Positions 9,517-22,504 of a DNA stretch of 33,235 nt are shown piece by piece; positions within the stretch are counted from its first letter, which is position 1; each line of letters begins with the position of its first letter. This DNA is from Actinomycetota bacterium (GTDB lineage: Bacteria; Actinomycetota; Acidimicrobiia; Acidimicrobiales; AC-14): positions 1-33,235 of the forward strand of contig JBFMCT010000036.1 in the NCBI GenBank assembly GCA_040754375.1, read 5' to 3'. Position numbers and translations under genes: made by a program. The notes beneath the pieces were generated by a model that was not told the DNA's origin, searched no databases, and saw only the letters and a program-made list of their open reading frames with translations.

Positions 9517-10917
9517 ATGGGCCGCAAGGCCGTGAGGGCCGATGAGGGCACGAAGGCGCCACCTACGGTGCCCGGCTCGTTCCTGCTCGGTTCGACCAGA
9601 GCGCTCCAGCGCGACCAGCTGGGCACCTACGCCCGGGCCATGGCCGAACACGGCGAGATCGCCCGCTTCCGGGTGGGCCCGCCCCGGCTCGGGTTCAGCT
9701 TCGACGCCGTGTTCACCCCCGACACGGCCCACCAGGTGCTGGCCGCGGACGCCGGCAGCTACGTCAAAGACGCCCCGGTCATCGGAGAGTTCCGCCACTT
9801 CCTGGGCAACGGGCTGCTGGTCAGCGAGGGGGAGCGGTGGCGCCGGCACCGGCGGGTGGCTCAGCCCCTGTTCACCCGGCGGGCCGTCGAGGGCCACCTG
9901 CCCACGGTGGCCAAGGCGGCCGCCGACCTCGTGTCCTGGTGCGAGGACGACGCGGCTGCCGGCCGCCCGGTCGACGTGCACGAACTGTCGATGCGCTACG
10001 CCCTGCACGCCCTGGGCCGTACCGTCTTCGGGGACGACATCGTCGAGGCCGCACCCGTCCTGCGGGCCGCCCTCCCCCCGCTGGGCGAGCATCTCAAGCG
10101 CCGCTCGCTGGCCCCTTTCCGCAGCCCCCATTGGTGGCCCTCGCCGGCCAACCGCCGGGCCGAGCACGCTCGCAGGGTCGTGTGGGCGCTGGCCGACCGC
10201 CTCATCGCCGACCGCCGGGCGAGGGCCGAGCAGGGGGACCAGGGCCACGACCTGCTGAGCCGCCTCCTCGAAGCTCGTGACCCCGAGACGGGCGACGCCC
10301 TCGCCGACGACGACGTGCGCGACGAGGCCATCATCTTCCTCATCGCCGGCCACGAGACGACCGGCAGCGCCCTGGCGTTCACCCTCGACCTCCTGGGCCG
10401 CCACCCGGCCGCCCAGAACAGAGTGCGGGCCGAGGCCCGAGATGCCGATCTCGGACGGGGCCCATCCGCCCTCCCCTTTACGGCCCAGGTGGTCGACGAG
10501 GCCATGCGCCTCTACCCGCCGGCCCACACCGTCGTGCGCCGGGCCCGCGCCGAGACCGAGCTGGCCGGTTGCCCGGTCGACAACGGCCGGATCGTGGCCG
10601 TGAACATCTGGGGCATCCACCATCGTGAGGACCTGTGGGACCGGCCGTTCGAGTTCTCGCCCGAGCGCTTCGGGGCCAGCCGGACCGGGCCCGAGGCCAC
10701 CCGCCGGTCGGCCCGCTACACCCACCTCCCCTTCGGGGGAGGGCCGCGTGCCTGCATCGGAGAGCACCTGGCTGTGGCCGAGCTGGTCGTCGCCACGGCC
10801 GCCCTGGTTCGCCGTTTCCGCCTCACGTCCCTGCTGGCCGAGACCCCGGTCGAGGTCGACCTCGCCCTGCGCCCCGGAGGTCCCCTGCCCTGCCGGCTCG
10901 AGCCGGTCCAGCCCTAA
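9517..10917 (+). CDS. Cytochrome P450
   Basis: A 466-residue haem-thiolate monooxygenase. The I-helix oxygen-binding motif AGHETTGS is at about residue 276, the K-helix ExxR (EAMRLYPP) at about 326, and the haem loop FGGGPRACIGEHLA at about 405-418 with its Cys ligand near 411. There is no N-terminal membrane anchor, as in bacterial class I enzymes, which need separate ferredoxin and reductase partners; none is next to it. The ATG at 9517 gives normal length and is preceded by a possible -10 (CAGACT, 9503-9508). The motif style is like actinobacterial CYP families acting on fatty acids or terpenoids, but the substrate cannot be read. Confidence 0.95.
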   Translation: MGRKAVRADEGTKAPPTVPGSFLLGSTRALQRDQLGTYARAMAEHGEIARFRVGPPRLGFSFDAVFTPDTAHQVLAADAGSYVKDAPVIGEFRHFLGNGLLVSEGERWRRHRRVAQPLFTRRAVEGHLPTVAKAAADLVSWCEDDAAAGRPVDVHELSMRYALHALGRTVFGDDIVEAAPVLRAALPPLGEHLKRRSLAPFRSPHWWPSPANRRAEHARRVVWALADRLIADRRARAEQGDQGHDLLSRLLEARDPETGDALADDDVRDEAIIFLIAGHETTGSALAFTLDLLGRHPAAQNRVRAEARDADLGRGPSALPFTAQVVDEAMRLYPPAHTVVRRARAETELAGCPVDNGRIVAVNIWGIHHREDLWDRPFEFSPERFGASRTGPEATRRSARYTHLPFGGGPRACIGEHLAVAELVVATAALVRRFRLTSLLAETPVEVDLALRPGGPLPCRLEPVQP

Positions 10918-11045: not shown

Positions 11046-11573
11046 CTAGTGAGCCCCGAGGGCGGCGGCCGCGGCCAGTAGTTGGTCGATCTCGGGACGG
11101 TCGTCGGGGCTCGACGGGCGCATGAGGACCTTCACCTCGCCGGCCACCACCAGGGCGTCCCCGCCGAGCTGGCGGACGTCCTCGACGGGGCGGGCCACAT
11201 CCTCGCCGCGGGCGCGGGCCGCGTCGTAGATGGCCCGGGTACCAGGGGAGAACACCTGGCGGGCGCCGGCCGAGCCGAGGTCGAGGCGGTCGTAGACGAG
11301 GCGGTTCTCGTCCGAGCAGAAGGCGAAGGCCCAGCCGAGATGGCCGGCCAGGGCGGCCAGGGCGTCGGGCGGGCTGAAGCCCACGGCCACCGGCACGAAG
11401 CCGGCGGCCGCAAAGTCACCCGACCGCTCCTGCACCCGCACGAGGTGCTCCTGGCAGGGCAGTCAGTGACGGTGGCGGATGACGGTGAGGAGGGCCCGGG
11501 GCGGCTCCGAACCGAGGTCCAGGTCGCGGCCGCCGACCACGTCGGGCAGGACGATGCCGGCCAGGGTCACCAT
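11046..11573 (-). CDS. Candidate selenoprotein: thioredoxin-fold, peroxiredoxin-like (UxxC)
   Basis: From ATG 11573 the frame is continuous to the stop at 11046 (175 residues) except for one TGA at 11463-11465, codon 37. The context is IRHRH-(TGA)-LPCQEHL. Thioredoxin-fold AhpC/TSA-like (Prx-like2) proteins have CxxC with this same flanking, so the TGA replaces the first redox Cys, giving U37-L-P-C40. The parts before it (MVTLAGIVLPDVV..., a beta-rich N-terminus) and after it (VPVAVGFSPPDALAALAGHLGW, FAFCSDENRLVYDRLDLG) both look like one intact family member. The likely role is thiol/selenol redox chemistry such as peroxide reduction. A stem-loop follows the TGA. Standard calling would start at about 11441 and lose the active site. 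Alternatives: a recent nonsense mutation or a sequence error. Divergent from the acyl-CoA ligase. Confidence 0.8.
11432..11448 (-). promoter_or_regulatory. Candidate bacterial SECIS stem-loop
   Basis: Read leftward, 14 bases after the TGA at 11463-11465, GCACC (11448-11444) pairs with GGUGC (11436-11432) around UCGUGCG. A further U.G pair would leave the loop CGUGC, with G at its second position, starting about 20 bases after the UGA. Known bacterial SECIS elements have a small hairpin whose loop lies about 16-37 bases after the UGA with a G among its first loop bases. The fit is reasonable but the stem is short and unproven. Confidence 0.45.
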
Positions 11574-11619: not shown

Positions 11620-13284
11620 ATGGCCGAGCGCGCCCCCCTGCCCCCGCCGCCCTATCCCACGTTGCGCGCCCTTATCGAGGCCCGGGCCGCGGAGCTCGGC
11701 CCCCGGCCCTTCGCCACCCTGCCCGACGCCACCCTGACCTACGCCGAGATCGACGAACTGGCCAACCGGGTGGCGGCTGTCCTGCTGTCCATGGGCTACG
11801 GCGCGGGGGACGTCGTGATGGTCCGCTCGGGCAACGGCTGGGCGCCGGTGGCGGTGTGGTTCGCGTGCGCCAAGCTGGGGGCCGTCTACCTCCCCCTCAA
11901 CGCACTTCTCACGGGGGAGCCCCTGCGCCAGGTGATGGCCGACAGCCGTGGCCGGGTGGTCGTCGTCGCCCACCAACTGGCCGACGACGTGGAGGCCGTG
12001 CGCGGTGGGCTGCCCGACCTGTGTGACGTCCTGGTCGTGGGCGGCCGCCGCGGCTGCGTACCGGGCCCGCCCCGGCTCGACGAGCTGGTCGAACGGGCGC
12101 CCTCGGGCCCGCCGCCCCCGCTGGCGGACTGCCCGGGGGCGCCAGCCAAGCTCATGTACACCTCGGGCACCACGGGGGTGCCCAAGGGCGTGCTGTGGAG
12201 CCGCCATTGCGAGGCCGTGTGGGCCTGGGCCTACGGCGAGGAGCTGCTGCCCATCGAGGCCGGCGAGGGCCTCTACTGCTGCCTGCCCCTGTTCCACGTC
12301 ACCAGCCAGGCCACGGTGCTGGCCGCCCTTTCCCGCCGGGGCCGGGTCACCATCGACGCCGGGTTCGACGTCGTCAGGTTCTGGCGCCGGGTACGGGAAG
12401 CCGACGCCGCCATGTTCACCTTCGTGGGGACGGTCCTGTCGGCGCTGGCCCGTCGCCCGCCCTCGCCGGGCGACGCCGACAACCCGGTGCGCAGGGCCCT
12501 GGGCGCGGCCACCCCTGTGGACCGCTGGCGGGAGATCGAGGAGCGCTTCGACCTGCACGTGGCCGAGACCTGGGGCCAGACCGAGACGGCGTCGTGCTGG
12601 TCGTGGCCGGCCCGGGGCCTGCCCCAGAAGACCGGGACCGTCGGTGTCCCCAGTGACCGCTGGGACGCGTCCGTCCGGGGCCCCGGCGGCCAGGAGCTCG
12701 GGCCCGGGGAACCGGGCGAGCTGTGGGTGAGGCCCCGGGCCGCCCACGTCATGTTCGAGGGCTACCTGGGCCCGGACGGGCCCGGCCGACCGACACGCGA
12801 GTGCTTCGACGACGACGGTTGGTACCAGACGGGCGACGTGATGGCGTTCGACGGCGACGGCCAGCTGTGTTTCGCCGGGCGCTGGCGCGACGCCATCCGG
12901 CGGGCCGGGGAGATGATCGCGCCGTCCTTCATCGAGGAGGCCGCTCTGCGCCACCCAGCGGTGGTCGAGGCCGCGGCCGTGGGCGTGCCCGCCCTCGACG
13001 GGGTCGAAGAGGAGGTGTTGCTGTGCGTCGTGGCCGACCCTGGCGCCCCCGGCGGGGTCGACCTCGACGACCTGGCCGCCCACCTGGGCCGGCTGCTGCC
13101 CCGCCACCTGGTGCCCCGTTGGCTGCGGGCCCACGACGAGCTGCCCAAGACGCCCACGACCAGGGTCCGCAAGTTCGAGCTGCGCGCCCTGGGCACCGCC
13201 GGTGCCTGGGACGCCCGCCGCCGCCGCTGGGCCGGCGGGCCGGGACCATCCGGTCCGCAAGGGCCTCCGGTGGCCGGGGGCTAG
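11620..13284 (+). CDS. ATP-dependent acyl-CoA ligase (AMP-forming, CaiC-like)
   Basis: A 554-residue member of the ANL adenylating superfamily, which activates a carboxylic acid with ATP to an acyl-AMP and passes it to CoA or a carrier thiol. The phosphate-binding motif YTSGTTGVPKG is near residue 180, the ETWGQTE aromatic-acid motif near 315, YQTGDVMAFDGDG near 405, and the hinge GRWRDAIRRAGEMI near 422. The A10 segment reads LPKTPTTRVRKFELR: the usual Gly-Lys is Thr-Arg, with a Lys two residues further. The layout resembles carnitine/crotonobetaine-CoA ligases. An acyl carrier protein gene starts 12 bases after the stop, so the acyl group may be loaded onto that carrier. Confidence 0.9.
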   Translation: MAERAPLPPPPYPTLRALIEARAAELGPRPFATLPDATLTYAEIDELANRVAAVLLSMGYGAGDVVMVRSGNGWAPVAVWFACAKLGAVYLPLNALLTGEPLRQVMADSRGRVVVVAHQLADDVEAVRGGLPDLCDVLVVGGRRGCVPGPPRLDELVERAPSGPPPPLADCPGAPAKLMYTSGTTGVPKGVLWSRHCEAVWAWAYGEELLPIEAGEGLYCCLPLFHVTSQATVLAALSRRGRVTIDAGFDVVRFWRRVREADAAMFTFVGTVLSALARRPPSPGDADNPVRRALGAATPVDRWREIEERFDLHVAETWGQTETASCWSWPARGLPQKTGTVGVPSDRWDASVRGPGGQELGPGEPGELWVRPRAAHVMFEGYLGPDGPGRPTRECFDDDGWYQTGDVMAFDGDGQLCFAGRWRDAIRRAGEMIAPSFIEEAALRHPAVVEAAAVGVPALDGVEEEVLLCVVADPGAPGGVDLDDLAAHLGRLLPRHLVPRWLRAHDELPKTPTTRVRKFELRALGTAGAWDARRRRWAGGPGPSGPQGPPVAGG

Positions 13285-22430: not shown

Positions 22431-22504
22431 CGCCCCCGGCAGGACTCGAACCTGCGACCCGCTGCTTAGAAGGCAGCCGCTCTATCCAGCTGAGCTACAG
22501 GGGC
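22431..22504 (-). tRNA. tRNA-Arg (anticodon UCU)
   Basis: Read leftward, a 74-base cloverleaf is clear. Acceptor arms GCCCCTG and CGGGGGC pair fully with one T.G; the D arm has GCTCAGCTGGATAGAGC, the anticodon stem GCTGC/GCAGC encloses CTTCTAA with anticodon TCT, and the T arm has GCAGG-TTCGAGT-CCTGC. The 3' CCA is not encoded. It reads AGA codons, rare in this GC-rich sequence. Confidence 0.97.

Follow-up and report, generated by a model that had tools for sequence, protein, structure and literature searches.

We conclude with great confidence that the minus strand at 11046-11573 carries a selenoprotein gene in which UGA is read as selenocysteine (Sec) at residue 37 of a SelL-related thioredoxin-fold redox protein. 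The gene lies within the window, the 33,235-nt stretch of DNA analysed here, which is contig C36 of a 3.5 Mb genome that is 97% complete. One frame of 176 codons runs from an ATG to a TAG (11048-11046), and its sole internal stop is the TGA at codon 37 (11465-11463), where the sequence reads IRHRH-U-LPC-QEHL; a preliminary description of the sequence had given the same frame, stop and context. The features of the gene itself are as follows:

11046-11573, minus strand: gene for a SelL-related/AhpC-TSA-like thioredoxin-fold selenoprotein, 175 aa including Sec37, ending at a TAG stop
11463-11465, minus strand: in-frame TGA for U37, the first residue of the UxxC motif (U37-L-P-C40)
11454-11456, minus strand: TGC codon for Cys40, the presumed resolving cysteine

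GC3 is 94% upstream of the TGA and 93% downstream, such that both flanks look coding. Mechanical ORF calling returned only a fragment of 131 aa (11046-11441) with a GTG start downstream of the TGA, the misannotation that had been foreseen for standard gene calling. The reading given here is therefore a correction, since standard annotation would yield a 131-aa fragment without the catalytic residue. The gene stands alone between a convergent cytochrome P450 gene on its 3′ side (9517-10917, plus strand) and a divergent AMP-binding (acyl-CoA synthetase-like) gene upstream (11620-13284, plus strand). Elsewhere, the window includes a tRNA gene at 22431-22504 on the minus strand (Rfam RF00005, 68.6 bits).

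We aligned 98 sequences, comprising the window, 31 loci from searches of genomes of the class and family, and 66 loci from genome contigs that were found with a five-member alignment. In a few cases one gene entered the alignment as two loci (e.g. L028 and L067), which leaves the picture unchanged. A search of genome contigs with the single protein as query matched no relative, because a pattern built with Cys cannot match a TGA and because the query is divergent. The codon in column 37 of the alignment is TGA in 93 of the 98 sequences and TGC or TGT in five, with no other codon; leaving out the window, 92 of 97 homologues have TGA and five have Cys. The TGA homologues come from many genomes in several phyla. 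Given that column 37 always holds a TGA or a Cys codon, chance placement of the TGA is excluded, in agreement with the earlier argument that a nonsense codon was unlikely to fall on the catalytic Cys by chance; the alignment of this position that had been proposed as a check returned only Sec (TGA) or Cys. Column 40 is Cys in 94 of the 98 sequences and TGA in one, L119. This locus (1501-1935; Myxococcales MAG, JAAFIF010000110.1) has TGA at both motif positions, LRHLR-U-LA-U-MAH, giving a UxxU form similar to SelL, in a genome with selA.

The closest relatives of the window protein, from Pseudonocardia, Actinomycetospora and a Nocardioidaceae MAG, are 50-58% identical to it; all have the TGA, and they share the motif (I/M)RHRx-U-LPCQ(E/Q/R)H. 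The window protein clusters in the tree with seven close relatives from the same three groups (support 100/99). The 296 genomes of the class include many family members, and most of the good matches have exactly one internal TGA. Within the window's own family, a match to the protein was found in only two of ten genomes, the window's own genome counted, which makes for a patchy distribution that transfer or loss might explain.

The genome has the full machinery for Sec insertion. We found selB (273 bits, over the cut-off), selA (409 bits, beside selB on contig C9), selD (347 bits) and a tRNA-Sec with the anticodon TCA, which are all the components that the preliminary description had named for a search. 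In addition, a formate dehydrogenase alpha gene of the same genome has an in-frame TGA, in ENQARI-U-HSSTVPG; formate dehydrogenase alpha is among the verified selenoprotein families, with a Sec that precedes His (UHxP; PMC13188914). This TGA, together with the machinery genes, indicates that the Sec system of the genome is present and apparently in use, elsewhere as well as in the gene described here. A partial second FdhA-like frame has a TGA in NRT-U-HAPSV (L126 1501-1953; C17:8014-8466 of the same genome), and the matches adjoining it, L127 and L131, fall in a different open frame, 547 aa long; this gene may be frameshifted or split. The SelA gene lies at C9:53809-54933. Most SelA matches of the window's order begin at model position 50-73, and those in other families of the class mostly begin at model position 1-3; to judge from these sequences, the N-terminal region of SelA appears to have diverged or shortened in the order.

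Across the 296 genomes of the class, selA was found in 54 of the 58 with a TGA homologue, as compared with 147 of the 238 others (Fisher p 1.3e-6, in a test that ignores relatedness and rests on listed hits only). All four of four further TGA carriers have selA in their genomes. Of the four genomes with a TGA homologue and no selA match, three are 70-90% complete, and the fourth, G205 (locus L025), is 96% complete yet has a TGA homologue; the missing selA in G205 may reflect a gap in the assembly or a Sec gene that has been left stranded.

Bacterial SECIS elements are located directly 3′ of the UGA (PMC9312934). Two structures were noted at this position in the window:

11421-11465, minus strand: SECIS-like stem-loop starting at the UGA, from folding energy
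11432-11448, minus strand: alternative apical hairpin, GCACCU-CGUGC-GGGUGC, whose loop contains GU, from comparison with close relatives

The 48 nt from the UGA onwards have a minimum free energy (MFE) of -24.0 kcal/mol, and synonymous recodings reach this stability in only 0.8-1.5% of cases; the dinucleotide z is -2.4. Set against all 48-nt stretches of the GC-rich window, 8% of which are as low, this energy is not extreme. The close relatives have a common hairpin, GCACCUG-GUC-CAGGUGC, 17 nt into the segment, and the alternative hairpin of the window occupies the same position, with a U-G replacing a U-A pair. When the hairpin with GU in the loop was forced, the energy was -20.5 kcal/mol, 3.5 above the MFE; the MFE hairpin of the window is not exactly that of its relatives. 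The folding signal across the TGA homologues is weak (mean synonymous z -0.7), and Rfam gave no match at the stem-loop. Taken on sequence and folding energy, a SECIS-like structure downstream of the UGA is plausible.

Modelling with AlphaFold2, using a 21-row alignment and Cys for residue 37, predicted a thioredoxin fold with a pLDDT of 94.7. The predicted strand 26-31 is followed by a helix, 38-49, directly after U37, which places residue 37 at the usual redox position. A PDB search with the single protein sequence found no match, whereas a profile search did: after a human synthase that is compared below, both the profile and the model match peroxiredoxins and ResA, and the fold matches to all three have a probability of 1.00. 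Pfam gave borderline matches to AhpC-TSA_2 and AhpC-TSA (25.9 versus 26 bits for PF00578). The fold type named in the preliminary description, Prx-like/AhpC-TSA-like, is thus upheld, and the label is sharpened to the NCBIfam name 'SelL-related redox protein'. Together, the Sec/Cys column, the Sec machinery and the predicted fold strongly support the earlier proposal of a UxxC selenoprotein.

We considered three other explanations for the TGA. Cys codons are a single base away from TGA and five relatives have Cys in column 37, so a former TGC or TGT might have become TGA in a pseudogene or through a sequencing error. However, the same TGA is present in 92 homologues from separate assemblies and several phyla, and recurrence in so many separate assemblies argues that it is not a sequencing error; moreover, both halves of the gene are intact with coding GC3, and the genome retains full Sec machinery. 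We therefore regard a decayed or misread Cys codon as highly improbable. The mechanical 131-aa ORF would fit a functional gene that starts at the GTG at 11441, with the TGA genuinely terminating an unrelated frame upstream. Against this, the 36 codons upstream of the TGA have aligned counterparts in the homologues, with an invariant Arg33 and a nearly invariant His34 among them, and the residues that they encode supply the first strands of the thioredoxin fold in the model; a downstream start thus has very little probability.

Near-cognate suppression, in which a residue other than Sec would be inserted at the TGA, is the least probable of the three, to the point of being negligible, since the standard mark of Sec insertion is just such an alternation of Sec and Cys at a redox site, in conjunction with tRNA-Sec(TCA), SelB, SelA, SelD and a stem-loop. 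We infer from the anatomy of the gene and the machinery present that Sec is inserted at residue 37. SelB bound to the stem-loop just 3′ of the UGA (11463-11465) would deliver Sec-tRNA(Sec), giving a 175-residue thioredoxin-fold protein in which Sec37, like its counterpart in CxxC relatives, immediately precedes the helix after the redox motif. Judging by fold and motif, redox chemistry of Sec37 and Cys40 is likely: Sec37 would attack a disulfide or peroxide, Cys40 would resolve the intermediate as a selenenylsulfide, and a thioredoxin or mycothiol system would then reduce it.

The protein matches NCBIfam NF040769 (SelL-related redox protein, SelL_rel_redox; E 3.8e-24) over model positions 25-172 of 173, and all 21 aligned members match this model; its score of 85.3 bits does not reach the curated cut-off of 120 bits. 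Most clear relatives in the class likewise score below the cut-off, so the window protein is better described as a divergent relative than as a strict member. It has U/C-x-x-C at the same place as NF040769, other members of which carry TGA in this analysis, but differs in belonging to a divergent branch whose motif, (I/M)RHRxULPCQ(E/Q/R)H, it shares with Pseudonocardiaceae. This branch (the window's actinobacterium, Pseudonocardia, Actinomycetospora and the Nocardioidaceae MAG) might form a selenoprotein subfamily apart, acting on a substrate of its own and perhaps linked to the actinobacterial mycothiol system, that has gone unnoticed because it scores below the cut-off, an idea that we offer tentatively and consider rather unlikely. 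Actinomycetospora cinnamomea DSM 45771 and Pseudonocardia nigra DSM 104088 each carry a member, so the branch is testable.

SelL of animals and bacteria has a UxxU motif. The window protein resembles this name-giving relative in having its redox motif at the same place, and the relative L119 has both TGAs; it differs in being UxxC with a single Sec, the second position being Cys40 (TGC). Human prostamide/prostaglandin F synthase (9us9, 9usa) is the top solved match by profile (1.8e-13) and by fold, with a CxxC (C44/C47). However, it has Cys for Sec and only 18% identity, and there is no ground for assuming a common substrate. NF040769 is not named in the 2026 review PMC13188914, and a search of the available papers for the name 'SelL-related' found none. 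Prx-like thiol:disulfide oxidoreductase selenoproteins (PF00578, UxxC/UxxU) are listed in PMC13188914 and PMC9312934; those with UxxC have in common with the window protein an AhpC/TSA-type fold, the UxxC, a bacterial origin and a predicted redox function, although the match of the window protein to PF00578 is borderline. We conclude that, given the NCBIfam model and the UxxC Prx-like selenoproteins in these reviews, this kind of UxxC selenoprotein is already known, and that what is new amounts to little more than a divergent branch in actinobacteria that scores below the curated NF040769 cut-off.
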